Assembly (NCBI GenBank): GCA_027315385.1
Contig: DAHUYD010000150.1
Coordinates: forward strand, 1-33,527
DNA from: Acidobacterium sp.
GTDB lineage: Bacteria; Acidobacteriota; Terriglobia; Terriglobales; Acidobacteriaceae
Direction of reading: 5' to 3'
Length of the DNA: 33,527 nucleotides
A program made the position numbers and the translations under genes. The notes under the pieces were generated by a model. That model was not told the DNA's origin and did not search any database. It was given only the letters and a program-made list of their open reading frames with translations. Shown piece after piece: positions 1 to 33,527 of this stretch. Position 1 is the stretch's first letter. Every line of letters starts with the position of its first letter.

Positions 1-2
1 CG

Positions 3-410
3 CTGGCCTTCAGCCAGCAGGAGATGATTGCGCAGCTGACTTCGTTGTTCGGGGCACTGGCGCTGGTGCTGGCGGCGATCGGACTCTACGGAGTGACGGC
101 ATATACGGTGGCGCAGCGCACGCGGGAAATCGGCGTGCGCATGGCACTGGGCGCGAATCGGCTGCACGTGCAGCGAATGGTGCTGCGCAGCGCGTTCCTG
201 CAAGTGGGCGCCGGACTGCTCATCGGGATTCCGGCGGCCATGGTTGCGGGGCACCTGATGAAGGCTCAGCTCTTCGGGGTCACGGGGTACAACCCTGTTG
301 TGCTCGGGCTTGCGATTCTGGTGCTGGGAGCCGCGGCCCTCATCGCCTCCGTGTTGCCGGCGCGGCGGGCGGCGGGAGTGGAACCGATGGAGGCGCTGCG
401 GATGGAGTAG
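3..410 (+). CDS. ABC transporter permease, C-terminal part (MacB/FtsX-like, ADOP type), cut by window edge
   Basis: This is the 3' end of a larger gene that starts before the window: the reading frame is open from base 3, upstream of the first ATG at 24, and ends with TAG at 408-410. The visible part (about 135 residues) has the typical last half of a MacB/FtsX permease domain: a hydrophobic segment (ALALVLAAIGLYGVTAY), then the hallmark QRTREIGVRMALGA loop, two further membrane segments and the terminal PARRAAGVEPMEALRME motif. Proteins of this family are inner-membrane permeases coupled to an ABC ATPase and move lipoproteins, peptides or drugs. The long ADOP form is abundant in Acidobacteriota, which fits the rest of the window. 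Substrate unknown. Its neighbour is convergent, so no operon relation to the right. Confidence 0.93.
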   Translation: MAFSQQEMIAQLTSLFGALALVLAAIGLYGVTAYTVAQRTREIGVRMALGANRLHVQRMVLRSAFLQVGAGLLIGIPAAMVAGHLMKAQLFGVTGYNPVVLGLAILVLGAAALIASVLPARRAAGVEPMEALRME

Positions 411-728
411 TGCGGATACCGCGATCCGCGTCTACGTAAATGCCGCCGCTGTCCCGGGGGCGACGCTGACCTTCAGCGCCGCGGCATAATTCACAGCCGG
501 CCGGTAATTCCCCGGGAGCTGGAGATGGAGCGACCCAGGCAGTTGCTTCGACTGCACTCGCTCCTGTGTTCCGAGCAACTCCACCGCTCCATTATCCGCA
601 AACCGCAGTATAAGGGGGGGCAGGCCGGGGGATGGGCGTCGCGACGGAGTGTGCGCCAATTATGGAGCTGGACGAAGCGCGGGGGAGGGTGGAATGGACA
701 GGCGCGGCGAATACTCCGCCACCGGATT
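411..728. other. Convergent intergenic region, no gene seen
   Basis: This stretch lies between the stop codons of the ABC permease (plus) and the beta-barrel protein (minus). The only structure noticed is a 6-bp inverted repeat just after the permease stop: GCGGAT (412-417) and ATCCGC (424-429) with a 6-nt loop. It is not followed by a T-run, so a classical terminator is not supported. The ORFs crossing the rest look like antisense shadows of GC-rich DNA. Confidence 0.5.
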
Positions 729-1283
729 CTAGAAGATGCGGTAGCGGAGACCAGCGCTGAGGCTGACATTGCCGATGGCGCCGAAGGTGAACTGAGGCCA
801 GATCTGGTATTCGACATCGCAGAGACGGAGGTCGAAGCGCGGCTTCCAGCGGTAGTCAATACCGCCGCCGGGAGCCATGACGAAGTAGTTGCCGGTGCCA
901 AGGTTGTAGGGAAAATTGAATGTGCCGTCGCCGATGAGGAATTTGGCGTAGGGGGCGAACCGGTAATGATCGAAGCCGGTGAAGCGATAGCGGGGCCCGA
1001 TGAGGTATGTGGTGGCGTAGGTATCGGATTGCTCGTGCCAGCGGGACCAGGTGGCCTCGCCCTCGATGCCGTAGTGCCAGGTGAGATTGGCGTCGACGAA
1101 AGCGCCGGCGCCCAGTACCCAGTGCTCTCCGTACTGGAGATGGGTGGCGTTGAAAACGCCGCCGACGGAGAGGGTCTGGTCGCCGTATATGGCGGACTGA
1201 GGGGATTGGGCAAGGGCCGGGATCGCGGCTGCCAGAAGACAGACGGCGATAAGAATGCGCAGCCGGGAACGACGGAGGATCAT
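729..1283 (-). CDS. Small outer-membrane beta-barrel protein
   Basis: A 184-residue protein when started at the ATG at 1283, which has a GAGG ribosome-binding site 4 nt upstream and places the signal peptide (MILRRSRLRILIAVCLLAAA, cleavage after ALA) at the N-terminus. A GTG at 1298 is an alternative that would overlap the upstream stop. The mature part alternates aromatic and polar residues in short beta strands (for example YGIEGEATW, TYLIGPRYRF, GGGIDYRW) and ends LSAGLRYRIF with a terminal phenylalanine, the usual signal for Bam-dependent insertion. Size and pattern fit an eight-stranded OmpA/opacity-type barrel. It lies directly behind the large NHL/Ig gene in the same direction, with only 11 nt between that gene's stop and this ATG, so the two are probably co-transcribed. 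Specific role unknown. Confidence 0.85.
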   Translation of the reverse strand: MILRRSRLRILIAVCLLAAAIPALAQSPQSAIYGDQTLSVGGVFNATHLQYGEHWVLGAGAFVDANLTWHYGIEGEATWSRWHEQSDTYATTYLIGPRYRFTGFDHYRFAPYAKFLIGDGTFNFPYNLGTGNYFVMAPGGGIDYRWKPRFDLRLCDVEYQIWPQFTFGAIGNVSLSAGLRYRIF

Positions 1284-1294
1284 GATGCCTCGGC

Positions 1295-4200
1295 TCACTG
1301 GGTCACCTGAACGGTGAGGTTGGCAACGTGGGTAACGGTGGTGTTTGTGCCGGTGGCGGTGACCTCGATGACGTACGTGCCCGGCTTGGCGGTGGAGAGC
1401 GACAGGCCGCCGCAGCCGTTCATGGCGAGCGTGGCGCCGGCGACGACAGCCAGGATGGCGACGAGTTTGAGGAGCCCGGTGCGCCTGCGGAACCGCCAGA
1501 GGGTCAACAGGCCCGCACCGGGAAAGAGGAAGGCGGCGAGAATTGCGCCGCTGCCGCGGGTGGCAGGGGCATGGTTGCGCGCCTGAGCGCCGGCGGCGAG
1601 GGGCGAGTTGGTGTCGACGGTGAGGGTTGCCGAAGCGTTGCCGTTTGCGCTGAGGGTGCGGGCGGGCACCGAGAAATTACAGGTGACCGCGGACGGCAGC
1701 GAACCGCAGCCGAGGGCAATGTTATCCGCGAAGCCGTCGAGCGAAGTGAGCGCAATTTTGATGTTCGCGTAGTCGCCGGTTGGGATGGAGACGGAAGTTG
1801 GATTGATCTGAATGCTGAAATCCGTGGCCTGGCCGACGGAGACGGTGACGGTATTGGACGTTGACGCGGCGTCATCGGTATCGCCGCTGTATTTAGCGGT
1901 GATCGTGTCGCTGCCGGCGGTGAGAGCGATGGAAAACGATGCAGACCCGTTGGCGCCAATGTTCGAGGCGCCGAGTTTTGCCGAGCCGTTGAAGAAGCTG
2001 ACGGTTCCTCCGGTGACGGCTTTGCCGCTGGCGGAGATGACGGTGGCGAGCAGAGCAACCGGCTGGGTGGAGGCAACCGTATTGGCGGACGCGGCCAGAG
2101 TGGTCTGCGTAGCGAGGGTGGTGACGGTAACCGAGACGGCGTTGGACGTCGCGCCGGCGACGTCGGTATCACCCTGGTAGACGGCGGTGATGCTGTGCTG
2201 GCCCAGCGGGAGCGCCGAGGTCGCGTAGACGGCAACGCCGCTTCCATTGAGTTTGGCAGTGGCAAGCGTAGTTGCGCCGGCCATGAAGGCGACGGAGCCG
2301 GAAGGCGTGCCGGCTTTGCCGGTGACTGTGGCTGTGAAGGTGACGGGCATGGTGACGGCAACGGTGGCAGCGCTGGCCGTGAGCTGAACGCTGCTGGTGG
2401 CCTGGATAACGCTGAAGTTGAGCGGCGGCGAGGAGGTGCTGGAACTGTCGCTGGCGTCGCCCTGATAAGCGGCAGTCAGCGAATAAGTTCCAACCGGGAG
2501 GCTGGAGGTTGTGTAATTCGCCATGCCTTTGGCATTCAGGTTTGCGCTGCCCAGCAACGCGGGTCCGTTATAGAAATCCACGGCGCCGCCGGGGACATTT
2601 CCACCGCTGCTGGTCACTGTCGCGGTGAAGGTGACAGACGCGCCGGCAAGTGAGGGGTTCGCGCTGGACGTCAGCACGGTGGTGGTGGTGGCAGGATTCA
2701 CCGTGAGCGTATAGGGGCCGGAAACGCTGGAGAAGTTGTCGTTATCGTCGTTGTAGGCCGCGGTTATGGTGTGGGTTCCAACAGCCAGGCTGGAGGTGGA
2801 ATAGGTAGCGGTCGCAGTGGTTCCGGAACCGGCGCGCAGGGTTTGCGTGCTCAATTTGGCAGCGCCGTCATAGAAGGTGACATTTCCAGTGGGAGCGACT
2901 GTTCCCGTGGCAGTGACAGTGGCGGTGAAGGTGACGGACGCGCCGTAGGCGGACTGGTTGCCGGCCGCGCTGGATGTGACGACTGTCGCCGTGTTCTGCT
3001 TAACGCTCTGTACAAACGCGGGAGAAGAGCCGGAGACGCTGTTCACGTCAGTGTAGGTAGCGGTGATGCTGTTCCTGCCCGGAGGAAGGCTGGAGGTGGT
3101 GAACGTGGCATTGTTGCTGGAATCCAGCGGGGAACTGCCCAGGAACGTGGCGCCGTCATAGAACGAGACGCTGGTGCCGGTGGTGGATACGTTTCCGGTG
3201 ATGCTGACCCCGGCTGCGAACGTGACGGAGCTGCCGTAGGTGGAAGGATTGTTGCCGCTGGAGTTTGTCAACGTGACGGTAACCTGCTCTGTGACCTGCT
3301 GTTGAAGCGGCGTTGCGGAATTGGCCGCCACGTAATAGGTATTGCCGCCGTATGCCGCGTAAATGTCATGCAATCCCACGGCCAGCGTGCTGTCCTGGAT
3401 GACCACCGTGCCGCTGGAACCGAGTGTCCCGGAGCCAATGACCACACCCGGCGGAAGAGATGGCGGATTAGGAACAGTTGGCGCGGTTGGGGGCGCGGGG
3501 AAGAGATCGTAAAGCGTCACGGTCCCGGAGGGGGTGCTTCCTGAAGGGCTTTTGGTCACCGTCACCGTAAAGTTGATGTTTTGGTTGTAGTTGGACGGAT
3601 TGGGTGTGGAGGAGGTGACCGCTACGACAGGGGTATTCTGGGCGAGCGCCTGCCCTACGGCATCGACGATGAGGGAGGAATTGACCTGGGTGGTGAGGCC
3701 GATGGCGGCGACGAGGGGATTACCGCTGCTGGTGGGAGCGAATTCGACCGCAACCGTGCACTGATTACCGACCGCGACGGTGTTGGTGGTGGAGCAGGTG
3801 CCGCCGGAGCCGAGATCGGAATTCGCATCTTTGGCAATTGAGGTGAAGGACAAGGTCTGGTTGCCGTCGTTTTCGATGGACTGATTCTGAGGAGAGCTGA
3901 CCTGGCCTACCCACATCGCCGGTGTAAAGAAGAGAGTGGCCTCGCTGGCTGTGACCTTGCGGACGACGTTATCGAAATATTCGGCGATGTAGATATCGCC
4001 GGCGGAATCGACGGCGAGGCCATACGGCGCATAGATACCGGCACCCGCGATTTTTGGCGAAACGCCGGAATAGGCAATTCCACTGCCCGTATACAATTCG
4101 CCGTTCTGGCCATTGCCGTAGGTGTAGCCGGATTTGCCATCGTTATAAACCTGGCTGCCGTTGTTGCCGGCAACGGTGGAGATCGTTTGGCTGGTGGCGT

Positions 4201-5536
4201 TCACCTTGCGGACGACGTAGTTGCGGGCATCGGCAATGTAGAGATTGCCGGCCGCGTCGCAGGCCACGGCGAGGGGGGAATCCAGTTCGGCAGTGGCGGC
4301 GGCGCTTCCGTCGCCGGAATAGCCGGCCGAGCCGTCTCCGGCATAGGAGCTAATGACATTCGAGCTGTTGACCTCCCGCACGACGTTATCGCCGGAATCC
4401 GGGATGTACATGTTGCCTGCGGGATCGAATACGACGCCGTAAGGAGCATTGAGCAGTGCCGAGGTGGCTGCACACCCATCCCCGAGAGAGTCCGCGGAGC
4501 CAGTGCAGGCGCCGGGAGTCGCGCCGCCGCCGGCGACGGTGGAGATGAGGCCTGTGGAGGCGCTGATTTCGCGAATGCGGTTGTTACCGGTGTCGGCAAT
4601 GTAGATGTCTCCGGAGGCGTCTACGGCGACGCCGCGCGGGGCATTGAATTCCGTTGTGGTGTTGTTGGGAGCCTGCCCGTCTCCGGCATAACCTGACTGT
4701 CCGTTGCCCCACCGGGCGAGGATATTGCCGGAGGTGAGGTTCACTTCCAGGAGTTCGTCGTTGTCGGTATCGACGACGAAGAGATTGCCGGCGCCATCGA
4801 GCGCCACGCCGGAGGGAAGGGTGATGGAGGTGTCGATGGCGACGGCGCCGGTTGGATCGTAACCGGGATTGCCAGTCCCGACGACGGTCTGGATGAGACC
4901 CGTGGAAGCCACGACCTCGCGGACGCGATTGTGGCTGGAGTCGGCAATGAAGAGGTCGCCGGCGCCGTCGACTGCAATGCTGGTGGGCAGGTACAGGTCA
5001 GCCTTCGTGGCAGCCTGGCCGTCGTTCACGGAGGTCCACTGGCCTACCTCGCCGGCAACAAGGCTGATGGTTCCGGGAACCATGACGGGCAGCGGGCCCT
5101 GCCCAATGCCGGTGAGATATTCGGTGCCAAGCGCGTTCCCGGAAGCGTCCTCAAGGACGACGGCGCCGTTGCGAGCGCCGGGATAGAGCGGAGAAAAAGT
5201 GACGCTGAACTGGCAGGACGCGGGCGCCGTGAACGCATTGCCGGTGCAGCCATCGGCGCCGGCGGTCGTCGCGGTGTAGTCGAGCTTCGCCGATCCCATG
5301 GTGAGCACGGCGACCGAAGCGACCTTGCCGGAAACATTGACGGGAACCGTGACCGTTTGCGCAGTGGAAGCACCTACGGCGGACAAGCCGAAGCTGGTGA
5401 GGTTCTGGGCATGGGCTGAGGCCAGGGTGGCGAGAGCGAGAACGGCGGCGCCAAATGAACCGGCGGCGGCACGGAAGGGAGCGCGGCTGGTTCGTGCGGG
5501 GAGCGGCCAGGCTTCAGAAAGCAAAGGGGAATTCAT
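1295..5536 (-). CDS. Secreted NHL-repeat / bacterial Ig-like repeat surface protein with C-terminal membrane hairpin
   Basis: A very large exported protein (1413 residues from the ATG at 5536, which has GAGG 8 nt upstream; an in-frame start at 5572 adds 12 residues that do not look like a signal sequence). Order of domains by eye: signal peptide ending ASAHAQ; an ASH/HYDIN-like beta-sandwich (about 45-150); about six NHL-type beta-propeller repeats (about 160-530) with recurring GVAVDAAGNLYIADxxNxxVRKV units; a second ASH-like domain (about 535-625); six Ig-like repeats of 95-115 residues (about 630-1235), each with VTFTATVT...GxVxFYDG...G.HxITAxYxGD; and a last beta domain. That last domain is interrupted by two hydrophobic segments joined by WRFRRR, the second ending AMNGCGG. 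Such proteins are common in Acidobacteriota and are presumed adhesins or surface scaffolds; no enzyme motif was seen. The repetitive DNA makes it prone to length change. Confidence 0.87.
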   Translation of the reverse strand: MNSPLLSEAWPLPARTSRAPFRAAAGSFGAAVLALATLASAHAQNLTSFGLSAVGASTAQTVTVPVNVSGKVASVAVLTMGSAKLDYTATTAGADGCTGNAFTAPASCQFSVTFSPLYPGARNGAVVLEDASGNALGTEYLTGIGQGPLPVMVPGTISLVAGEVGQWTSVNDGQAATKADLYLPTSIAVDGAGDLFIADSSHNRVREVVASTGLIQTVVGTGNPGYDPTGAVAIDTSITLPSGVALDGAGNLFVVDTDNDELLEVNLTSGNILARWGNGQSGYAGDGQAPNNTTTEFNAPRGVAVDASGDIYIADTGNNRIREISASTGLISTVAGGGATPGACTGSADSLGDGCAATSALLNAPYGVVFDPAGNMYIPDSGDNVVREVNSSNVISSYAGDGSAGYSGDGSAAATAELDSPLAVACDAAGNLYIADARNYVVRKVNATSQTISTVAGNNGSQVYNDGKSGYTYGNGQNGELYTGSGIAYSGVSPKIAGAGIYAPYGLAVDSAGDIYIAEYFDNVVRKVTASEATLFFTPAMWVGQVSSPQNQSIENDGNQTLSFTSIAKDANSDLGSGGTCSTTNTVAVGNQCTVAVEFAPTSSGNPLVAAIGLTTQVNSSLIVDAVGQALAQNTPVVAVTSSTPNPSNYNQNINFTVTVTKSPSGSTPSGTVTLYDLFPAPPTAPTVPNPPSLPPGVVIGSGTLGSSGTVVIQDSTLAVGLHDIYAAYGGNTYYVAANSATPLQQQVTEQVTVTLTNSSGNNPSTYGSSVTFAAGVSITGNVSTTGTSVSFYDGATFLGSSPLDSSNNATFTTSSLPPGRNSITATYTDVNSVSGSSPAFVQSVKQNTATVVTSSAAGNQSAYGASVTFTATVTATGTVAPTGNVTFYDGAAKLSTQTLRAGSGTTATATYSTSSLAVGTHTITAAYNDDNDNFSSVSGPYTLTVNPATTTTVLTSSANPSLAGASVTFTATVTSSGGNVPGGAVDFYNGPALLGSANLNAKGMANYTTSSLPVGTYSLTAAYQGDASDSSSTSSPPLNFSVIQATSSVQLTASAATVAVTMPVTFTATVTGKAGTPSGSVAFMAGATTLATAKLNGSGVAVYATSALPLGQHSITAVYQGDTDVAGATSNAVSVTVTTLATQTTLAASANTVASTQPVALLATVISASGKAVTGGTVSFFNGSAKLGASNIGANGSASFSIALTAGSDTITAKYSGDTDDAASTSNTVTVSVGQATDFSIQINPTSVSIPTGDYANIKIALTSLDGFADNIALGCGSLPSAVTCNFSVPARTLSANGNASATLTVDTNSPLAAGAQARNHAPATRGSGAILAAFLFPGAGLLTLWRFRRRTGLLKLVAILAVVAGATLAMNGCGGLSLSTAKPGTYVIEVTATGTNTTVTHVANLTVQVTQ

Positions 5537-6020
5537 GCTGCAGACCTCGACAGAAATCTGAATCCGTACCATCAGGGGAGCGGCTTCAGAGAACCAGCAG
5601 GAGGGCGCCTGGCAAGCGGGAGCGCACCGAAACGGGCGGGAGCATGGCCAGCAGGACCCGGGATGCTGAGAACTGCGGCAACAATAGCATTCCGCGGCGG
5701 GTCAATGATATTACCTTTGTAAGTTGTTACCTGGCACTTTAGTGTGATCTGTGGATTGTGAGAACAGCCAGTAAATACGCGCAAATCGTCGAGGTTGCGG
5801 GAAGAGGATGGCCATTTTTCCAGCTCGGCATCGGCACCGAAGGTAACCATGCCCGACACCCGCAAACATGGGCGGAGCAGACGGTCTGCGGAAGCAGGGA
5901 TGGTTGCGAAACGGCGGAGGAGCGGGGGGCTATGGACGAAATCGAGGCAGGTGCAATCAGCCCGGGATGGGGGCTGCGGAGTTGGTGGAATGGGGCAGAG
6001 GCCGCTCCTGCATCAGGCGC
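5537..6020. other. Intergenic region holding the promoter side of the NHL/Ig gene
   Basis: No convincing gene lies here. On the minus strand a TAATAT hexamer sits in an AT-rich pocket at about 5705-5735, the most AT-rich part of the gap, and is a possible -10 element for the NHL/Ig gene; no good -35 was found at the right distance. A short palindrome GCAGAC-G-GTCTGC at 5877-5889 could be a protein-binding site but has no partner elsewhere in the window. No T-run hairpin was seen behind the amidohydrolase gene. Confidence 0.35.
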
Positions 6021-7085
6021 TCAGGCTGACGGCATCAGCCGCAGGGCGTTGTCTCGATAAACCTTTTTGAGCACATCGTCGGGAAGGTTGAGACCGTAGA
6101 TGTTCCAGCGGCCCTGGCGGGAGGCGTGGGACGGGTATTCGAAGTACTCGTCGGCTGTTTCCAGGAATCGAAAATACAGCCGGTACATCGATTCGTCGGG
6201 GAGCAGGTCGCTGCCAAAAAGAATGCGGTTCGCATAGCGGAGGAAAAACTCGCGAGCTGTGAATGGCTGTCGGCCCAGTTCCGAGGCGCGCGCGCTGATG
6301 TCCACATAGACGTTAGGGAAGGAATCGAGCACGTGAGCGGCGCGGGCCAGATGCTCGCTGCTGCCGGCGACGTGCGCGCCGACGAAGGTGGTATTGGGAT
6401 GGCGCGCAAAGACGCGGTCACGCTGGCGCAGGAGTTCTTCCTTTGAGTATTGCGAGCCGCAGAAACTCCAGTCGGGATGCGCCGCCAGTTCCTCATATCG
6501 CTCATTGGCCGCATCGATGGGGAGAAAGAAGGCGTCCGGGTCGGCCGTGTGGAACATGACCGGAATGCGCAGCTGAGCGGCTTTATCGAAAATGGGCGCC
6601 AGCCGGTCGTCGTCAATGCGTACTAACTGACCGTCCGCGCCGCGCACCGACAGGCCGAGGTCCTTCCATAACTTGATGCCCACCGCGCCGTGTTCGACGA
6701 GCCGCTCCAGCTCATCGCAGGCGCGCGCTGCGAATCCCGATTGGCCGATGCCGTTCCAGTTCATCCAGCCGATGGTGGCGAATCGGTAAGGGTCGGCTGC
6801 GTGGAACTCTTCGACGATGCGCAGGGCTTCGTCGCCGGTGCGCATGGTGATGTTCACAATTCGCTCGATTCCGCAGGCATCCATTACGCGCAGCACCTCG
6901 GCTGGGTCCATGGAATCGAGGTGATTATGGTAGTCGATGGCCGGATACTTTGGTCTTTCGACGATGTGCTCGATGACGCGAAGCATGGACTTCGGCCGGA
7001 AGTCGCTCAGCGGCAGCGCGACCTTTGCCGTTGCCGACACGAGCGCGACGAATTTGTCCTGTTGGTTCGTATCCGGCCCGCTCAT
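6021..7085 (-). CDS. Metal-dependent amidohydrolase, Amidohydro_2 family
   Basis: A 354-residue TIM-barrel hydrolase without a signal peptide, so cytoplasmic. Visible metal and catalytic residues follow the Amidohydro_2 order: H53 and H55 in DYHNHLD, H179 in MFHTAD, H238 in GAHVAG and D293 in FGSDLLPDE. The segment GIKLWKDLGL around 137-144 gives a lysine at the usual barrel position. Family members hydrolyse lactones, decarboxylate aromatic acids or act on sugar-acid derivatives; the substrate cannot be read from sequence. Its ATG overlaps the stop of the upstream DeoR-type gene as ATGA (7082-7085), a strong sign of translational coupling, so it is probably a step in the pathway controlled by that regulator. 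A NagA-type deacetylase is a different branch of the superfamily, so a deacetylase role is possible only as speculation. Confidence 0.88.
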   Translation of the reverse strand: MSGPDTNQQDKFVALVSATAKVALPLSDFRPKSMLRVIEHIVERPKYPAIDYHNHLDSMDPAEVLRVMDACGIERIVNITMRTGDEALRIVEEFHAADPYRFATIGWMNWNGIGQSGFAARACDELERLVEHGAVGIKLWKDLGLSVRGADGQLVRIDDDRLAPIFDKAAQLRIPVMFHTADPDAFFLPIDAANERYEELAAHPDWSFCGSQYSKEELLRQRDRVFARHPNTTFVGAHVAGSSEHLARAAHVLDSFPNVYVDISARASELGRQPFTAREFFLRYANRILFGSDLLPDESMYRLYFRFLETADEYFEYPSHASRQGRWNIYGLNLPDDVLKKVYRDNALRLMPSA

Positions 7086-7894
7086 ACGAGAATGAGTTCC
7101 ACGCCCTGGCCGCGCAGGTTCTCTTCCACGTCGCGGGGAATATTACGGTCTGTGATGACGGTATGAATCGCGGAGATGGGGACGATGCGCGACAGGCTGC
7201 GGCGATTGAACTTGGTGGAGTCGCACACCACGACGACGCGACGGGAAGACTTCACCATGGCGCGATTGACGCGCGATTCAAGGAAATTCGGCGTGGTGAT
7301 ACCGGCCTCCACATCGAAGCCGTCGACACCGAGGAAGAGAATGTCGGCGTGCATTTCATTGAGGACATCCTCGGCGAGCGGACCGACCAGGGAGAAGGAG
7401 TTTTTGCGGAGAGTGCCGCCGATGAGAATCACTTCGAAGGGGGTGTTGGTCAGCTCGGCGGCTATGTTTACCGCATTGGTAATAAGGGTGAGCTGCGAGA
7501 AGCGGGTGAGAACGCGCGCCACGGCGCTGGTGGTGGTGCCGGAGTCCAACATGACGCACTGGCCCTCCTGCACCATTTTGGCCGCGGCTTCGGCGATCCG
7601 GTGTTTCTCTTCCGAGTGCTGCTTCTGTTTTTCCTGGAGGGATGGGTCGAACAACGCATTGGACTGAATACGCAGCGCACCGCCATGGCTGCGCTGCACC
7701 AGCCCCCGCGACTGGAGATACTCCAGGTCCTTGCGGATGGTGATCTGCGAAATGCCGAGAGTCCGCGACAACTCGCCCACGAGTACGCGGCCCTGGTTCT
7801 GCACCAGCGCGAGAATGTGCTGGCGCCGCTCATCGATCAGCATTTGACTGTTCTCCGGCGCATTTCCAGCGCCGGCCTTCGGCTTAGTCACCAT
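7082..7894 (-). CDS. DeoR-family transcriptional regulator (AgaR/GlpR-like)
   Basis: A 270-residue repressor-type protein. An N-terminal winged helix (about 20-75) contains LVGELSRTLGISQITIRKDL followed by GLVQRSHGGA, the classical DeoR signature. The sensor domain shows the sugar-phosphate pocket motifs MLDSGTTT (115-122), LITNA (137-141), GVDGFD (189-194) and CDSTKF (224-229). DeoR-family proteins of this type bind phosphorylated sugars and lift repression of catabolic operons. The ATG at 7894 has only a weak GGGG upstream; the in-frame ATG at 7843 has GGAGAA 8 nt upstream and would give a 253-residue protein, closer to the usual length, so the start is uncertain. It lies 66 nt behind the GH36 gene and is coupled to the amidohydrolase gene. 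The shared elements upstream of GH36, agaS and the TonB receptor are its candidate operators. Confidence 0.93.
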   Translation of the reverse strand: MVTKPKAGAGNAPENSQMLIDERRQHILALVQNQGRVLVGELSRTLGISQITIRKDLEYLQSRGLVQRSHGGALRIQSNALFDPSLQEKQKQHSEEKHRIAEAAAKMVQEGQCVMLDSGTTTSAVARVLTRFSQLTLITNAVNIAAELTNTPFEVILIGGTLRKNSFSLVGPLAEDVLNEMHADILFLGVDGFDVEAGITTPNFLESRVNRAMVKSSRRVVVVCDSTKFNRRSLSRIVPISAIHTVITDRNIPRDVEENLRGQGVELILV

Positions 7895-7960
7895 GATCGA
7901 GCCCCGATTCTCCTGCCACAGTGTGTCTCCCGAATGATACCGACTTGAAAAGCAGCGTTG

Positions 7961-10432
7961 CTAGGGATTCGATGGGGGGCGGCGGATCTCCGCCGGATCG
8001 AACACCGTGGACATATAGCCGGCGATGTGCACTGAGAACGTCTGTGCGGTGTGGCGGCCGTCGATCCCCCGCACCGTCAGGCTGACGGTATAGTCGCCCG
8101 GTTCGGTCCACGTGTGATTCACTGAGGCGCCTTCCGCGCTCACGCCGTCGCCGAAGGTCCAGTGCCAGGAGACGACCGGCTCGGCGTCCGAGGCGGTGGC
8201 ATCGAAGTCCAGCGTCTGCCCGGCATGGCCGCTGCCGGGGTGGTGCACCGTCAGGGTGGGAACAGCCGCGGCTGCGTCTTGATTCACGATCCTGAACATC
8301 CGCACGGCTTGTCCCGGGACGGTTAACTGCACGGCGGCGGATGCGATTGTGGCGCGGGCGAAGGAATCAAGGACGGGAGCGACGGTGTAATGAGCATCCG
8401 GCGCCAGTCCGAGCCGCGAGAGGGAAATGGAATGGGTGCGCGGCTGCTCTGTCCAGTTGAAGACGGTGAGGATACTCTGCCGCGGAGACTCTTTCAGGAA
8501 GAAGATGCTGGGCTGGCCGTCTGCCTCTGAGTAGTCCATGAGGTCGACGGGGGTTGAGGCGCGGCTCAGGTGCACCATGTCCAGGAGGTCACGGTTCTCC
8601 AGCAGCGCCATCCGTTCGGGCGAGTGCTCGAGCGACGGCAGGTTGTCGCCGATTTCGAACATACCGCCGGCTACGGCAGCCAGAGCGATGGAAGTTCGCG
8701 CTTGATCGAGGGTGGCGGGCGTGCGGCTTTCATGCCAGCTCTGGTCGGAGATGGTCTGCGTGGAGACGGCAAAGGCGTCGGGATCGGAGACAAAGAAATT
8801 GCGATCCATATAGTAGCGTGCCGCGATGCCGGGGGCGGCCTCTCTGGCTGCGTCGAAGGTGTGGCCAGTGTCCTGCGAGATTCGGCCGTAATCGACATAG
8901 CCGACGGGATTCAGCATGGCGCTGCCGTCCTTGTCGAGCCAGACGCGATTGCCGACCGCTTTGCGAATGATCTTAAGGCCGATGCGCTGGGCTTCCATGG
9001 CCGTCGTGTTGGGCCTGTAGCGATAGCCTTCGATGGCGCTGTCGTCCATGAAGTCGAGTTTGATGTAACGAATGCCCCATTGGCGCACCATGGTGGAGTA
9101 AGTCTTCGACAGGCAGGCCTGCGCTCCGGGGTTTGTGGTGTCGAGCATGTAGAGCACATCCTTGCCATCGACTACGTCCCCGGCGGGAATCGGCTGGCCC
9201 TTGGCATTCTTTACCAGCCAGTCGGGATGGTGCATGTAAACCCAGGAACGCACCGACACCTCAAACGGCGCGGTCCAGATTCCCGGGGTCAGGCCGAGCC
9301 CATGCACTTTGTACTCCAGGCGCCGCATGCCGCCGGGGAACAGAGTGGCATCGGGGGTGGTGTACTCCCCGCGCGCGTAGTCGTAGCCTTCGTCGATGTG
9401 GAATGTCGTGTAGCCGTACCGCTCCAGATGCTGCGCCAGCCATTCCGCATTGGTGAGAGCTGCACCCTGGTTGAGGCCAAAGTAGAAGGCGGTCCAGCTC
9501 CACCAGCCCATCAGCGGCGGACCCGAGACGCGTGCGTGATGGATCCTGCGGATCAGCTCGCCATAGGTTTCAAGCTGGCGATGATAATGGCGGCTCACAC
9601 TCAGCAGCGTGCGCTCAGAACTCAGCTGGTCGTTTGCCGCCACAGGCAGACTCAGCTCGATCAGGTCCTGCGCCGGAGAATTCTGCAGCGAGTTTTCCTT
9701 TTCCAGCTCGGTGGTTCCGGCCGAATCCACCTGATAAGAGGCGATGGCGGGATTGCCTCCGGCCGCGGTTCCCATGTGCAGCCGCAGGATGGTGAGAAAA
9801 CGGTCGGAGGTGAGCGCGCCAACGAAGAGGCTCTCGTGGCTGCGGCGGTTGTATATGAGCTCGCTGCCTACCGCTCTGAGCATCCCGTGAGTCGCCGCCA
9901 GGTCATGGATTCGCATGGCCGGACGGTCTTCGCTGAAGCTGTCCGCCAGCACGCGTTCTTCGGCGGAAGGGCCATGAAGATCGATAAGACTGGCGCCGGT
10001 TGCATCCACAATGCGAATGGATTGCACGTGGATTGTCCTGGCGGCGGTGTTCTGCACCGCCACCTGGATCTCAGCAAATGGGGTGCTGTGAAAGGTACGA
10101 AGGGAGTAGGTCAGCCGGGGCTGGCCGGCGAGGCCTGAAAACACGACCTGCCAATCGGTCGCCGGACCCAGATCGCCCTGGACCTGCTGCCGGCGGACAG
10201 AATGGTGGGGGTACGCTGCGGAGCGGAGCCAGCGGCCATCCACCTTCGCGGCTACTCCAGCAAGCAGTACCGGCTCGGCCTGCCCGGGTTCGCCCAGGCT
10301 GTACTGCCCATCTGGAGCCACGGATGCCGTGAGGCCCTGTTGCTGGGCAACAGCGAAGCTCGCCAGCAGATTGAGAGTCAACGCAATCATGCCGGCCCGG
10401 GTGATCCTGGTCCTGAAACTCCTCGGCGCCAC
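7961..10432 (-). CDS. Secreted GH36-type alpha-galactosidase / alpha-N-acetylgalactosaminidase with C-terminal PKD domain
   Basis: An exported glycoside hydrolase of about 823 residues. The chosen start is the GTG at 10432, preceded by an AAGGGGGG run, giving MAPRSFRTRITRAGMIALTL with a charged N-region; the longer TTG at 10453 and the ATG at 10390 fit less well. Residue numbers here are from the TTG start. A beta-sandwich N-terminal domain (about 40-290) is followed by a TIM barrel with GWWSWTAFYFG (316-326), HIDEGYDY (352-359) and the nucleophile motif YIKLDFMDD (463-471, D467). RISQDTGHTF (524-533) supplies the likely acid/base D528. A C-terminal barrel-flanking beta domain and a PKD domain (about 735-812, WTFGDG) follow. 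GH27/36 enzymes release terminal alpha-galactose or alpha-GalNAc. Which sugar is used here is not settled; AgaS nearby favours GalNAc or galactosamine. Confidence 0.85.
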   Translation of the reverse strand: MAPRSFRTRITRAGMIALTLNLLASFAVAQQQGLTASVAPDGQYSLGEPGQAEPVLLAGVAAKVDGRWLRSAAYPHHSVRRQQVQGDLGPATDWQVVFSGLAGQPRLTYSLRTFHSTPFAEIQVAVQNTAARTIHVQSIRIVDATGASLIDLHGPSAEERVLADSFSEDRPAMRIHDLAATHGMLRAVGSELIYNRRSHESLFVGALTSDRFLTILRLHMGTAAGGNPAIASYQVDSAGTTELEKENSLQNSPAQDLIELSLPVAANDQLSSERTLLSVSRHYHRQLETYGELIRRIHHARVSGPPLMGWWSWTAFYFGLNQGAALTNAEWLAQHLERYGYTTFHIDEGYDYARGEYTTPDATLFPGGMRRLEYKVHGLGLTPGIWTAPFEVSVRSWVYMHHPDWLVKNAKGQPIPAGDVVDGKDVLYMLDTTNPGAQACLSKTYSTMVRQWGIRYIKLDFMDDSAIEGYRYRPNTTAMEAQRIGLKIIRKAVGNRVWLDKDGSAMLNPVGYVDYGRISQDTGHTFDAAREAAPGIAARYYMDRNFFVSDPDAFAVSTQTISDQSWHESRTPATLDQARTSIALAAVAGGMFEIGDNLPSLEHSPERMALLENRDLLDMVHLSRASTPVDLMDYSEADGQPSIFFLKESPRQSILTVFNWTEQPRTHSISLSRLGLAPDAHYTVAPVLDSFARATIASAAVQLTVPGQAVRMFRIVNQDAAAAVPTLTVHHPGSGHAGQTLDFDATASDAEPVVSWHWTFGDGVSAEGASVNHTWTEPGDYTVSLTVRGIDGRHTAQTFSVHIAGYMSTVFDPAEIRRPPSNP

Positions 10433-10454
10433 GTCAGCCCCCCTTGCCTGCAAA

Positions 10455-10472
10455 CTTTCGTTTAGTTACGAG
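10455..10472 (-). promoter_or_regulatory. Candidate DeoR operator upstream of the GH36 gene
   Basis: Read on the minus strand this is CTCGTA, one base, then CTAAACGAAAG. The plus-strand CTTTCGTTT resembles the TTTCRTTT core known for AgaR-type DeoR regulators. Near-copies of both halves occur upstream of agaS and the TonB receptor. It lies between the predicted promoter and the start codon of GH36, where a repressor could block transcription. Binding is inferred. Confidence 0.45.
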
Positions 10473-10492
10473 ACACGGTGCTCAGAAGACGA

Positions 10493-10521
10493 AGGGTAGT
10501 CCGTCGCGATAGCTGTGTCAA
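10493..10521 (-). promoter_or_regulatory. Candidate sigma-70 promoter of the GH36-DeoR-amidohydrolase operon
   Basis: On the minus strand a perfect -35 TTGACA (10521-10516) is followed by 17 nt and TACCCT (10498-10493), a weak -10. The position, about 60 nt upstream of the GTG start, suits the operon. Confidence 0.4.
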
Positions 10522-10715
10522 GGCGCCGGGAAATGGGAGCAATCAGCGGATGTTGAAATGTTTCCGGCATCTACAGCGGCCCGCCGGTGCGTGCTCTTCG
10601 GGGAGGAAGCATCATGGACCATTCGCCGGATTGCGTAGCACTGGAAAATAATGGTAATAATACGGAATCCAGCGTGAAGCCCGCATTTTTGGACGGCATT
10701 CTCAGATAAAACATC

Positions 10716-11690
10716 ATGGCGGAACGAGATCTCATCATTGCCGGCGAGGTCAATCTGGACCTGATTCTCTACGGCCTGCCCGAATCGCTCCCGATGGATC
10801 GCGAACTGCTCGCCACGGGTTTCCGGTTGACTCTGGGAAGCTCGTCGGCAATCCTCGCGCACAACATCTCTCTCCTTGGGCCTCGGACCGGGTTTGTGAC
10901 CCGTGTGGGGGGGGACGAATTAGGCGGCATAGCGCTGGAGCGGCTGGAGGAAAGCGGCGCCGACCTGTCCCGGGTTGTTCGCGACGAGCCGGCCACCACC
11001 GGCGTGACGATACTGCTTCACCACGGGGGTAAGCGGCGGATACTTACCTATCCCGGGCTTATGTTCGATATGACGTGCGGCGAGATCGACCTGGCCTATC
11101 TCGCCACAGCGCGTCATTTTCATCTGTCTTCGTTGTTTCTGCAGCGGGGCCTGCATGCGGGATTGCCGGATCTGCTGCGGACACTGAAGCAGCGTGGCAT
11201 CACGGTATCTCTGGATACGAACGACGACCCCGAGGACCGCTGGGACGGAGTTCTCGAAGAAGTGCTGCCTCTGGTGGATGTGCTGTTGCCGAATGAAGAT
11301 GAGGCCCTGCGCATCGGACACCGCGATACAGTGGAGTCCGCTCTGGATCGGTTGTGCGAGCAGGTGCCGCTGGTCGGGATTAAATGCGGCGCACGGGGGG
11401 CGGTAGTCGGCCGCGGCAGGGAGCGCTTTGTCGCCGCTCCGGTTCGGCTCCCGCCTGCTGACGTGGTCGACACCATCGGCGCCGGCGACAGCTTCAACGC
11501 AGGCTTTCTCGCCGCGTGGCTGGCCGGCTGCGACCCGGAAACCTGCGGCCGTTGCGGCAATATCACGGGAGCGCTGTCGACGCTTCGGCCGGGCGGCACC
11601 GAAGCATTCCGCGATGCGGAGCTCAGGCGAGAATTTCTGGCCGAGCATGGCTTTGTTCTTCAGGGTGCTTTGAACTCGAGTCCTGAGTAA
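10716..11690 (+). CDS. PfkB-family carbohydrate kinase
   Basis: A 324-residue cytoplasmic sugar kinase of the ribokinase/PfkB family. Visible motifs: an N-terminal GEVNLDLIL strand, the glycine-rich substrate loop GFRLTLGSSSAILAHNISLL (36-55), RVGGDELGG (63-71), LLPNEDEAL (190-198) and the C-terminal signature DTIGAGDSFNAGF (252-264) with catalytic base D258 and the anion hole GAGD. The family phosphorylates hydroxyls of free or phosphorylated sugars; the neighbouring AgaS and DeoR genes make a tagatose-6-phosphate, GalNAc or fructose-type substrate plausible, but this is context only. The ATG at 10716 has no evident Shine-Dalgarno sequence. The nearest promoter-like pair is TTGCGT (10631-10636) with TAATAA 18 nt later. 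It is divergent from the GH36 operon and leads the plus-strand arm: kinase, permease, isomerase. Confidence 0.92.
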   Translation: MAERDLIIAGEVNLDLILYGLPESLPMDRELLATGFRLTLGSSSAILAHNISLLGPRTGFVTRVGGDELGGIALERLEESGADLSRVVRDEPATTGVTILLHHGGKRRILTYPGLMFDMTCGEIDLAYLATARHFHLSSLFLQRGLHAGLPDLLRTLKQRGITVSLDTNDDPEDRWDGVLEEVLPLVDVLLPNEDEALRIGHRDTVESALDRLCEQVPLVGIKCGARGAVVGRGRERFVAAPVRLPPADVVDTIGAGDSFNAGFLAAWLAGCDPETCGRCGNITGALSTLRPGGTEAFRDAELRREFLAEHGFVLQGALNSSPE

Positions 11691-14517: not shown

Positions 14518-14826
14518 CTTCCGAGAGCTCGATGATGCGTCGTTTTCCGTCGGAGTTGTGGTTGCGTCGCGGAACACGGCAGATCGATCGACTCCTTTAG
14601 CGTCCCCGGTTATCCTGGGCGATCAGGCATGGGCGGCGGCTGCCGTCAGCGAAACGCGGCATTGGCCAGGGAGCCGCGGGCACGACTTTTGGCCGAGGAT
14701 GGTTCGCGATGCTCCCAAAGGCCCGAGCCCATTTTCCTGTTGACAGCACACCAACAAAACTCGTACAAAGAATCCCTAAACGAAGTATTCGCTCCCAATC
14801 GAAAGTCTTCGAAAAGAGGTTAGGAG
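14518..14826. other. Intergenic region with the TonB-receptor promoter and operator
   Basis: A gap of 309 nt between agaS and the receptor. Apart from the promoter/operator at 14740-14785 it contains several CGAAAG/CGAAAA repeats close to the start codon (14799-14816), which again resemble half-sites of AgaR-type DeoR proteins. No gene was seen. Confidence 0.5.
14740..14785 (+). promoter_or_regulatory. Promoter and candidate DeoR operator of the TonB-dependent receptor
   Basis: A perfect TTGACA (14740-14745) is followed after 18 nt by TACAAA (14764-14769). CTCGTA (14760-14765) overlaps the -10 and, 10 nt later, CTAAACGAAG (14776-14785) lies around the expected transcription start. Both half-elements recur at the GH36 and agaS promoters. 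Confidence 0.5.
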
Positions 14827-31321: not shown

Positions 31322-31436
31322 GGACGACCGCAGGGCATTCGCAGCGGCCCCGACGGCGGCGAGATCATCTCGCTGCTAAACTCAACCGCGAGCGCTCTCA
31401 CCTACCCGGACTAAACCAAGGGGGAAGCTCAGGCCG

Positions 31437-31673
31437 CATCACGCTCAAGGCGCGTGGCACCTCTATGGACATTCGCATGGCAACCTGCCGGACGAGCCGC
31501 TGGCACTCTCCCTTGATGTTGGCGTTGATAGTCACGAGTTTCGCCCGTGGCATTTTGACGAAATCCAGTTCGTGATGCAGGCCAAGGCAAAGGCACGGGA
31601 GTCGGCAAGCCAGGCAGAACGCCGCGCGGCCCTTGCCGATCTGGCCGCCTACGACCAGGAAATTGGGATCTGA
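31437..31673 (+). pseudogene. 3' remnant of a metallophosphoesterase gene
   Basis: The frame from 31437 reads HHAQGAWHLYGHSHGNLPDE, then LALSLDVGVDSHEFRPWHFD and an Ala-rich tail ending YDQEIGI at TGA 31671. WHLYGHSHG is the C-terminal metal-binding GHxH motif of calcineurin-like phosphoesterases, of a short type often found on phages and plasmids. No start codon, N-terminal metal motifs or ribosome-binding site occur upstream, so only about the last 79 codons survive. It lies between the broken GH3 gene and the MNT/HEPN pair, which marks the segment as rearranged. Confidence 0.72.
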
Positions 31674-31731
31674 AACACGATCACGGTTCACGCTGCTCAG
31701 TCGCGGTGTTGCCGAGATGAATGCGCAGCGT

Positions 31732-31761
31732 TTGCCGGTCTGTACTCATTTTGAGTACAAT
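31732..31761 (+). promoter_or_regulatory. Promoter of the nucleotidyltransferase gene
   Basis: TTGCCG (31732-31737), 18 nt, TACAAT (31756-31761, 5 of 6 with consensus). Transcription would start about 31768, a few bases before the start codon, so the message may be nearly leaderless. The -10 lies between two palindromes. Confidence 0.55.
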
Positions 31762-31779
31762 TGTTCTCGAAATGAGAAC
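31742..31779 (+). repeat. Twin 17-bp palindromic operators over the promoter
   Basis: GTACTCATTTTGAGTAC (31742-31758) and GTTCTCGAAATGAGAAC (31763-31779) are both perfect inverted repeats in their arms and share the pattern GTWCTC-N5-GAGWAC. Their centres are 21 bp apart, two helical turns, and they flank or overlap the -10. The wHTH domain encoded just downstream is the obvious candidate to bind them. Confidence 0.7.
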
Positions 31780-31780
31780 G

Positions 31781-32395
31781 ATGCTCACGTCCGTCGGCGA
31801 TCTGCTCTTTGGCCAGACCAGAGGGCGGGTCCTGGCGCTTCTGTATGGTGCGCCCGACGAGACCCCCTTCGTTCGTCAAATCGCCCGCCAGGTGGAGACC
31901 AGCGTGGGGACCGTGCAGCGGGAGCTTAACTTGCTTGCCGATGCAGGCCTGATCAAGCGCTCCACAGTTGGTAATCAGGTGTTTTACCAGGCCAACCAGG
32001 AGCACCCGGAATATCCGGAACTACGGGCCCTGCTGGCAAAGACCACAGGCGTCTTTCAAATGCTCAAGACGGCGCTTGCGCCGCTCTCGTCGCGCATCAA
32101 TCTTGCTTTTGTCTATGGTTCGGTTGCCCGCGGCGAGGAGAGGGCAACGAGCGATATCGACCTGATGGTGATCGGAGCGGTCTCGCTTGACGATGTGCTC
32201 GACGCGGTTGGCCCTGTCGAAAAGCAGTTAAGCCGACCTGTAAATCCAACTATTTACTCCCTTGAGGATCTGAAGGCGCGGCTTCACGCAGGCAACCACT
32301 TTCTGCAATCATTGCAGAAGAGCAAGAAGGTCTTCCTGATCGGCGACGAGGATGAGTTTAGAAAAGCTGGTACAACTCGGGTGGTACAAGGCTGA
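31781..32395 (+). CDS. wHTH-nucleotidyltransferase protein (MNT antitoxin-like)
   Basis: A protein of 204 residues from ATG 31781 (GAGA a few bases upstream; ATG 31772 is in frame but lies inside an operator, and the frame from 31721 runs through the promoter). Residues 8-72 form a winged helix (LLFGQTRGRVLALLYGAPDE, VRQIARQVETSVGTVQRELN). Residues 105-135 carry the minimal nucleotidyltransferase motif GSVARGEERATSDIDLMV, that is GS-N10-DxD with D125 and D127. In MntA/HepT systems the nucleotidyltransferase AMPylates and silences the HEPN toxin. Here the next gene, overlapping by 44 nt, is a HEPN gene ruined by frameshifts. The wHTH fusion suggests self-repression through the twin palindromes. 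The catalytic residues look intact. Confidence 0.85.
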   Translation: MLTSVGDLLFGQTRGRVLALLYGAPDETPFVRQIARQVETSVGTVQRELNLLADAGLIKRSTVGNQVFYQANQEHPEYPELRALLAKTTGVFQMLKTALAPLSSRINLAFVYGSVARGEERATSDIDLMVIGAVSLDDVLDAVGPVEKQLSRPVNPTIYSLEDLKARLHAGNHFLQSLQKSKKVFLIGDEDEFRKAGTTRVVQG

Positions 32396-32816
32396 GTCCA
32401 GCAGCCCCAAGGAGATTGCCGATCTCTTCAGCATCGTGAACGCTCGCAGGCGGACTCCAGGGTGGAAGGCAACTCCGACGATCTGCGCTTCCAGGCCGCT
32501 TACAATGGCATCCTCACGCTCGCCAACATTGCTCTCCGGGCCAGCGGTTTTCGCGTCTCTCTCGGCCAGGGCCATCACCAGCGCGTGATCGAGAGCCTCG
32601 AACATACGCTGATAACGCAGGATGCCACCGCGCGCGAGAAATGGGTGCGCAAGATCGCAAAAAAGAAATACCACGAGCTACGACCTGGCCGGCGGCATCT
32701 CGCCCACCGAACTCGCCCAGGTCACGAAAGATCTGACCGCCTTGCGGGAGCAGGTAAAGGCCTGGTTGAAAGACGCCCATCCAGAATTTCATCACGACGA
32801 TTCACACCAAAGTTGA
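32352..32816 (+). pseudogene. HEPN-domain gene broken by two frameshifts
   Basis: Reading across three frame segments rebuilds one HEPN-type protein of about 154 residues. Segment 1 (from ATG 32352): MSLEKLVQLGWYKAE to IVNAR. Near 32448 one base is missing, moving to the next segment, ADSRVEGNSDDLRFQAAYNG, ALRASGFRVSLGQGHHQRVI to KWVRKIAK. In an A6 run near 32660-32665 one base is extra, returning to the first frame: NTTSYDLAGGISPTELAQVT to HHDDSHQS, TGA 32814. The R-x-GQGHH stretch matches the HEPN active-site area. The first shift cuts the product before the catalytic region, so no toxin is expected unless the sequence has errors. It overlaps the nucleotidyltransferase gene, the usual MNT-HEPN layout. 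Confidence 0.78.
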
Positions 32817-32969
32817 GCTATGCCTCGGGTCCGCATCGTCTGCGTTTGAATTTGCAGTCCGAAGAGTGACGGGTGAAGACGAACGAATCCATGAGGGCCT
32901 CCCACTTCAGCCGGAGTTTTGCTCGAACGCTGAAATGGGTCAAAAAAATCGGGAGGCTTTTTGTCGCTG

Positions 32970-32987
32970 GTACAAAATGGGTACAAA
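32970..32987 (+). repeat. Left GTACAAA box pair
   Basis: GTACAAA at 32970-32976 and 32981-32987, separated by 4 nt (11-bp period). The same arrangement, same strand, occurs at 33175-33192 on the other side of the tmRNA-like core. Confidence 0.6.
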
Positions 32988-33009
32988 GCGGTCACAAAAA
33001 CGACCCGAT

Positions 33010-33033
33010 TTTCAGGCTCTGTTTCAGGCTCTG
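33010..33033 (+). repeat. 12-bp tandem direct repeat
   Basis: TTTCAGGCTCTG occurs twice back to back (33010-33021, 33022-33033). It lies between the left box pair and the tmRNA-like core. Function unknown; a replication-slippage duplication is the simplest explanation. Confidence 0.6.
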
Positions 33034-33067
33034 ATTGGTAAGTGCAAGAAACTAAAACGCTTAATTA

Positions 33068-33088
33068 TGGTGGAGGCGGCGGGAGTCG
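33068..33088 (-). other. tmRNA 3'-end fragment, attachment-site core
   Basis: On the minus strand the last 21 nt, ending CCCGCCGCCTCCACCA, equal the T-loop, T-stem 3' strand, acceptor strand and CCA of a typical bacterial tmRNA. Sequence further 5' no longer fits a T-stem and there is no tmRNA body, so this is only a 3' fragment. On the plus strand GGAGTC (33082-33087), GGTTG, GACTCC (33093-33098) makes an inverted repeat across its edge, as expected for a tyrosine-recombinase core. tmRNA genes are common integration targets for islands and phages. Confidence 0.6.
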
Positions 33089-33174
33089 GTTGGACTCCAC
33101 TCTTTCAAACCACGTAACTTGCTGATTCTACGAATGTCAAATCAGTAAGAATTGGCATGATTGTCAAGTCTTGC

Positions 33175-33192
33175 GTACAAATCACGTACAAA
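33175..33192 (+). repeat. Right GTACAAA box pair
   Basis: GTACAAA at 33175-33181 and 33186-33192, again with a 4-nt spacer and 11-bp period. The midpoint between this pair and the left pair is 33081, about 3 bp from the centre of the tmRNA-like core. Confidence 0.6.
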
Positions 33193-33275
33193 ATGCCCAA
33201 AAATTTACGCAAAACCGCCGGCCACCACTCTCACAATTCAGGTTCATTGTTCAAGCACTCTGAAGTCTACCACCT

Positions 33276-33527
33276 TTATACATGATGAGCAGCAGCGTCT
33301 GATGGCGCAGGGTATCCGAGGTCGAGCCGTCGAATAGGTCGCGATAACCCATCGGCGGAATGGCCCAATACCGCAATCAGCTGTGCCATCGCTCGCTTCC
33401 GCCATCGGTGCATGCTTGAGAAGCCAAGCGGGGGTCCCGGCGCGCCATGGAGAACAAGCAAGTCAGAATCCAGGGGCGTGGTATCATGCTCTTCAGGCCC
33501 CACGAGCGATGAGCCGGAGTTGATCCC
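33276..33527 (-). other. Unassigned open frame at the right edge
   Basis: A minus-strand frame is open from the window edge to TAA at 33276-33278 (83 codons visible). It contains FSSMHRWRKRAMAQLIAVLG and IRRLDLGYPAPSDAA. I recognise no family, and the codon third positions are not clearly GC-biased, so it may be a gene remnant or chance. It could be the end of a gene that begins beyond the window. Confidence 0.2.

Follow-up and report, generated by a model that had tools for sequence, protein, structure and literature searches.

The site near the right end of the contig described here is very likely a chromosomal junction of two tandem islands, each inserted by a tyrosine integrase into the 3' end of the tmRNA gene. 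This reading is based on the anatomy of the site, on synteny with two relatives, and on comparison with intact islands. From these, we infer the order of events, that the islands on the two sides (called A, to the left, and B, to the right) are different ones, and that the missing end of B abuts the tmRNA gene. Our confidence does not go further because the argument from the flanking DNA rests on two of the five relatives compared.

Organization of the contig

The window, by which we mean the whole stretch of 33,527 nucleotides analysed, is the entire contig C123 of an Acidobacterium sp. assembly (3.75 Mb, 194 contigs, 91% complete), and its end at 33527 lies 439 bp beyond the tmRNA-derived core. 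The features are given below from left to right, with P for the integrase side and P' for the far side of an attachment site; G, C and L numbers are our own handles for genomes, contigs and loci.

1-5782, no strand: chromosomal flank, as found after the tmRNA gene in G003 and G006 (DNA matches and Pfam)
Within 1-5782, strand not given: permease gene, end only, putatively MacB/FtsX-like
1295-5572, minus: Ig-like/NHL-repeat protein gene (Pfam)
5783-6013, no strand: left boundary region of the inserted DNA, with no recognisable core or arm pair
6014-31335, no strand: inserted cargo (Pfam)
31336-31431, no strand: dispersed-repeat fragment of 96 bp (matches in same-genus genomes)
31432-32843, no strand: block with a nucleotidyltransferase/HEPN-type gene pair (90% identity to G008:C25:4724-6147), the PDC-M05B partner being a putative HEPN gene
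31721-32395, plus: nucleotidyltransferase gene, PADLOC candidate PDC-M05A (PDLC04368, E 1.1e-72; Pfam Polbeta and NTP_transf_2)
32462-32869, plus: interrupted partner gene, PADLOC candidate PDC-M05B (PDLC04377, residues 2-58 only)
32844-32892, minus: start of a tyrosine integrase gene (island A), ATG at 32892, cut after about 16 codons
32970-32987, plus: putative P-side arm-type pair of island A, GTACAAA-N4-GTACAAA, located between the core and the start of the integrase gene
33010-33033, no strand: tandem duplication of 12 bp in the stretch separating the P arm from the core
33068-33088, minus: core, a 21-nt copy of the tmRNA 3' end (identity to relatives' tmRNA 3' ends)
33082-33098, no strand: 6-bp inverted repeat with a 5-nt centre, probably incidental
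33175-33192, plus: P'-side putative arm-type pair, distal end of island B (P'-side profile; same layout in G147, G163 and G366)
33193-33527, no strand: first bases of island B up to the contig end, with no Pfam match in the two frames scanned

Core sequence and arm-type sites

An earlier note on this DNA had proposed that the 3' end of tmRNA serves here as an attachment site for a tyrosine integrase, and this proposal is supported. The 21-nt match that it had reported at 33068-33088 on the minus strand, TGGTGGAGGCGGCGGGAGTCG, is indeed there, and is identical to the tmRNA 3' ends of relatives. When other copies were sought, the whole assembly held one copy of the core at zero mismatches and 4 further core-like places with three mismatches, versus 14 for the reversed control; a place at 4502 with three mismatches was put down to chance, as the reversed control has more such places. 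The displaced fragment is on the minus strand, which is the correct orientation, with flank synteny placing the tmRNA gene to the right.

The core site itself had been sought in a 6-bp inverted repeat at the border of this match. The repeat GGAGTC-GGTTG-GACTCC is present at 33082-33098, but its assignment as core site did not hold: as a general core site it was rejected, given that only 3 of 15 distinct P'-side sequences (the window, G438 and G422) have GGAGTC-N5-GACTCC. With tyrosine integrases, strand exchange has to fall inside the block common to attP and attB, and the centre of the repeat (33088-33092) starts at the last base of the tmRNA-identical block. Because it is rare on P' sides and its centre begins at that base, the repeat is probably not the core site, and we take it to be either incidental or a feature of a small subgroup; by simple arithmetic, about 8 perfect 6-bp inverted repeats with a fixed 5-nt centre are expected per 33.5 kb.

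The paired GTACAAA boxes on both sides of the core were found as previously described, at 32970, 32981, 33175 and 33186, all on the plus strand, and their position and conservation support them as putative arm sites. Apart from the two arms, no place in the 3.75-Mb assembly has the pair GTACAAANNNNGTACAAA. Among 41 genomes of the family, GTACAAA-N4-GTACAAA was present at 6 sites in 4 genomes (reversed control, 0), five of these sites lying within about 110 bp of a tmRNA-type core; the exception (L081, at G067:C1:579177) showed no core match, tRNA or same-family integrase in the 3 kb read. The concern that GTACAAA might be frequent at unrelated loci applies to single 7-mers but not to the 11-bp-spaced pair: the window contains 8 of the former versus 0.88 expected, four of them outside the arms, and no core could be seen by eye beside the three at 3010, 14763 and 26818 (the fourth is at 9308). 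The symmetry of the arms also had to be qualified in part, since they are nearly equidistant (midpoint 33081), but partly by accident, as a tandem duplication of 12 bp, TTTCAGGCTCTG, lengthens the left spacer at 33010-33033 and is absent from L085, L087 and L090. The integrase-binding roles of the boxes are putative, deduced from sequence; the 11-bp spacing, about one helical turn, would suit integrase subunits sitting side by side on one face of the DNA.

On a wider scale, the P'-side pattern was found in 4 of 399 genomes of the class (G000, G147, G163 and G366; control, 0), and twice in G016, a genome outside that sample, while two scans of viral contigs returned 0 each for the arm-core and core-arm patterns. 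A P'-side profile of 17 rows, the window among them, matched the window at 33070-33233 with an E value of 3.3e-35, which is therefore an in-sample figure; its other matches there were the left P arm (32969-33020, E 0.0094), 14730-14783 (E 0.6) and 368-388 (E 3.4). By eye, a box resembling ACTTA can also be seen about 9 bp outside the core on many P sides, as can a GTAACTTA- or GTAAGTTA-like one on many P' sides.

On the integrase side, window 32843-33088 (246 bp) is 90% identical to L090 and L085, through the P arm and into the integrase start. In both of those loci the segment adjoins an intact tmRNA gene, and in L090 it continues into a tyrosine integrase. That a random tmRNA-like 21-nt string came to lie among unrelated GTACAAA boxes is an explanation to which the four single 7-mers outside the arms, and the one box pair of the family without a core (G067), lend some color, but which we consider negligible in view of these 246 bp of 90% identity to islands joined to tmRNA, and of reversed controls that gave 0 both in the 41 and in the 399 genomes.

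Chromosomal flank

Window 731-5782 is 76% identical to G003:C46:66406-71504, and window 729-5689 is 74% identical to G006:C105:14207-19185. The tmRNA genes of these two relatives end at 66124 and 14048, respectively, and 282 bp (G003) and 159 bp (G006) separate those ends from the flank-like DNA, which is collinear with the window and in an orientation that places tmRNA to the right; window 3-412 matches further along in both. The comparison with island-free relatives that had been suggested was thus informative, as the tmRNA gene of G003 and G006 adjoins DNA like window 1-5782 after 282 and 159 bp. Because each has one copy of the core, we read these two genomes as empty sites. From the match at 731-5782 it follows that the contig is chromosomal and that the core lies in the chromosome; from the synteny, the tmRNA gene would be expected near window 5.9-6.1 kb, a position that is instead some 27 kb before the core.

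This comparison covered 8-20 kb downstream of tmRNA in each of five same-genus genomes, of which only G003 and G006 match. The other three (G001, G004 and G011) have other DNA after tmRNA, with a match of at most 110 bp, in G004 only, and in the stretches covered there were no arm pairs, extra cores or same-family integrase.

Inserted DNA and integrase remnant

A distal core or arm of island A near 5.8-6.0 kb was sought and rejected, as the mismatch search, the shuffles and the P' profile all remained at chance level: within 5691-6070 the best core match had 7 mismatches, which 103 of 500 shuffles equalled or bettered, and the P'-side profile had no match at 5783-6013. With a left boundary that carries neither core nor P' arm, we can at most infer that the whole of 6-32.8 kb is one island A.

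The cargo, as assigned by Pfam, comprises genes for an amidohydrolase, a DeoR regulator, a melibiase-like protein, a PfkB kinase, an amino-acid permease and a SIS protein, followed by genes for an outer-membrane beta-barrel protein, a beta-helix protein, and MFS, AtuA, LysR, esterase and GH3 proteins. Homologues of the cargo occur at other places in relatives (6014-11654, for example, at G003:C111). In 6 same-genus genomes, the dispersed repeat at 31336-31431 has 10 matches of 84-91% identity, including one close to tmRNA in G002; it is probably the end of an insertion sequence, for which the IS3 family would be a guess from a neighbouring ORF in L062.

The block at 31432-32843 has its counterpart in G008 (C25:4724-6147) on the P' side of a tmRNA-type core located at 8280-8303 of the same contig. 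The PDC-M05B partner ORF, which is interrupted in the window, is a single 158-aa ORF in G008, and the PDC-M05 pair of that genome (L065:4751-5870) is on the island side of the tmRNA-type core, beside SIR2-like and DUF6088 genes. To the right of the block, the tyrosine integrase that was expected beside the core is represented by a remnant at 32844-32892, but only about 16 of its codons are left in the window, where relatives have PF00589 integrases at the same place. On the integrase side, the similarity to L090 and L085 ends at 32843, and so does the match to the 1.4-kb G008 block; shorter matches to L093 and L098 begin at 32838.

It could be argued from this sharp breakpoint, at which the 1.4-kb block abuts the integrase start, from the lack of a distal core or arm at 5.8-6.0 kb, and from the cargo homologues elsewhere in relatives, that all that is left of the older island is a P remnant of 250 bp, and that the cargo at 6-32.8 kb arrived by other rearrangements. 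We consider this less likely than not, for the cargo sits between DNA that belongs downstream of tmRNA and a tmRNA core, and in G008, too, the 1.4-kb block next to it forms cargo beside a tmRNA-type core. Such a scenario would change the extent of island A and not the nature of the seam, and the likelihood we assign to it overlaps with that of the tandem-island reading.

The same signature in other genomes

A genome collection was scanned for GTACAA-N5-GTACAA followed, after 56 to 86 bases, by the core. Sixteen loci were retrieved, 15 of them titled Acidobacteriota or lower taxa (two of these, L087 and L099, come from one assembly) and one Pseudodesulfovibrio. The core runs on into an intact tmRNA gene in 12 of the 16 (not in L087, L092, L095 and L099), and a tyrosine integrase or a fragment of one is beside the arm in 11, namely ten of the same family by phmmer, among which L085, L089 and L098 are weak fragments, plus L100, which is of another type. 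The integrases scanned match PF00589. For L086, L087, L092, L095 and L096, two runs returned no same-family integrase; L086 and L092 show DNA similarity to the integrase-start segment of the window. The Pseudodesulfovibrio locus (L100) has a similar arm-core layout at tmRNA with an integrase carrying DUF6538, and is possibly a case of convergence.

In G147 a complete single island could be delimited (1694306-1718889, 24.6 kb), its tmRNA end carrying the P arms and the integrase, its far end the P' arms. Downstream of the tmRNA gene (1693958-1694310) come four GTACAAA boxes in steps of 11 bp, and then the integrase; a second core is found at 1718889 with three boxes before it, and no box pairs other than those of the two island ends were present in the 29 kb read (1692000-1721000). 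A single integrated island therefore has one set of arms at each end, while the window has both the P and the P' set around one core, with chromosomal flank on the same contig.

One core with both sets of arms implies either an attP or a seam between tandem islands, the two options that the earlier note had left standing, and the evidence from the flank resolves them towards a junction. The attP of an excised element, with both arms of one island caught in the metagenome as a free circle, would indeed look like this, P-core-P' on one molecule, and L087 has the same layout. We find it improbable nonetheless, in that the integrase beside the P arm is cut after about 16 codons, and that the contig runs into chromosomal DNA, found downstream of tmRNA in G003 and G006, that would be absent from a circle. 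Because the left arm adjoins an integrase remnant and the contig is chromosomal, with about 27 kb between its flank and the core, we take the site for a seam between tandem islands; on a chromosomal contig, the P' arm after the core must begin another element. An error of assembly or binning that falsely joined the left part of one island to the right part of another at their common core is just as hard to credit, if not slightly harder, even though the assembly is fragmented and this contig stops 439 bp after the core. The block in common with tmRNA is only 21 nt long, which is below the k-mers usually employed in the final steps of assembly, and the same layout is present in other assemblies, namely in L087 and in G163:C33, which we take to be seams of this type too. 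In the latter the left arm has a different sequence and the integrase start was recognized by eye only; L112, whose P' sequence is the same as that of L087 and which may be the same genome, was not counted apart.

With regard to the tandem-island seam, the earlier suggestion of an island to the right was borne out in that one starts at the core and leaves the window, cut by the contig end, but an island or its remains, with the integrase remnant at 32844-32892, also lies to the left. For the start of island B, the only match outside the P' segment was weak (55 bp in G540), and 11 of 298 genomes of the order match any part of it, mostly in the P' segment. Neither the integrase end of island B nor an intact tmRNA gene, the complete ssrA that was to be looked for, was found in the assembly: RF00023 gave 4 matches, all below the cut-off, of which three are 75-76 nt long and probably tRNAs, RF01849 gave none, and Rfam at gathering thresholds gave none on the window.

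Other arrangements at tmRNA deserve mention here. Arms near tmRNA are also seen in G008 and G002. In the latter (L062, G002:C8), 1.1 kb (7322-8419) separates the tmRNA end from a second core with P arms and contains one 260-aa ORF, with no integrase recognized in it by eye; a very small or collapsed island is our reading of it. Duplications of the tmRNA 3' end occur in G007 and G018 (L066, 343 and 463, 120 bp apart; L064, 8442 and 8589, 147 bp apart), with no GTACAAA pairs nearby and with partly similar sequence between the copies.

Discussion

The following mechanism would account for such a site. The arm-binding domain of the integrase would bind the 11-bp-spaced GTACAAA boxes and its catalytic domain the core, and the enzyme would recombine attP with the tmRNA 3' end; the island would supply a replacement 3' end, by which the tmRNA gene survives, and the displaced core would mark the far end. 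A further island integrating at the restored gene end might then push the first island outward and leave P-core-P' at the seam. From left to right, the contig would hold the flank (1 to about 5.8 kb) and inserted DNA ending in the decayed integrase start and P arm of island A, then the core, a 21-nt tmRNA 3' end, and the first bases of island B with its P' arm; what remains of B, including integrase and P arm, would presumably lie off the contig, along with the regenerated tmRNA gene.

A broader idea, which we put forward tentatively and would not expect to hold in full, is that this integrase family is almost confined to Acidobacteriota and uses 11-bp-spaced GTACAAA boxes, two to four per side; that its islands are repeatedly stacked at tmRNA; and that older members lose their integrase and keep P-core-P' seams with compatible arms, upon which a resident integrase could act to excise neighbours or composite islands, moving metabolic and defence-type cargo in trans.

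In practical terms, islands and their seams can be recognized by a core from the tmRNA 3' end that has a GTACAAA pair at about 60-85 bp towards the integrase and at about 87 bp on the other side, a signature of use in Acidobacteriota, whose genomes are in many cases fragmented metagenome assemblies. It also shows that tmRNA is a repeated landing site in Acidobacteriota, where the seams of decayed islands stay readable. The known picture of how such islands integrate is unchanged.

Lambda-type attP sites consist of a core flanked on both sides by arm-type sites, with the integrase gene next to one arm. The site described here resembles them in having a core with putative arm sites on both sides and an integrase beside one arm, and differs in its sequence, its spacing and its 11-bp-period boxes, which appear peculiar to the present group.

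In the Islander study, an integrase recombines attP with an attB located in a tRNA or tmRNA gene; the gene is restored by the island, and a displaced piece of it is left at the far end. Tandem arrays in which each island has one such fragment are described, and tmRNA is noted as the most enriched target (PMC4383910). Our site agrees with those tandem islands at tDNAs as a case of tyrosine-integrase islands in tRNA or tmRNA genes with a displaced fragment at the far end, whereas Islander requires an integrase and a fragment of its own for each member, and the left member here has an integrase remnant only (PMC4383910). The string 'Acidobacteri' appears 0 times in the main text of that paper (PMC4383910). 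A search of titles and the beginnings of abstracts returned no paper naming this site or this integrase family, which is weak evidence of absence.

In Dehalococcoides, ssrA is followed by multiple tandem islands, each delimited by 20 bp copied from the ssrA 3' end; some of them lack integration genes, and the cargo is metabolic (PMC3146451). The tandem placement at ssrA, the 3'-end copy as boundary, the integrase-poor members and the metabolic cargo are all shared with our contig; in contrast, the putative integrase there belongs to the serine recombinase family (DsiB), while here a tyrosine integrase is accompanied by paired GTACAAA boxes (PMC3146451). Stacked islands at tmRNA are, in short, already known, and the window holds what looks like a clear and well-resolved but ordinary example of them.
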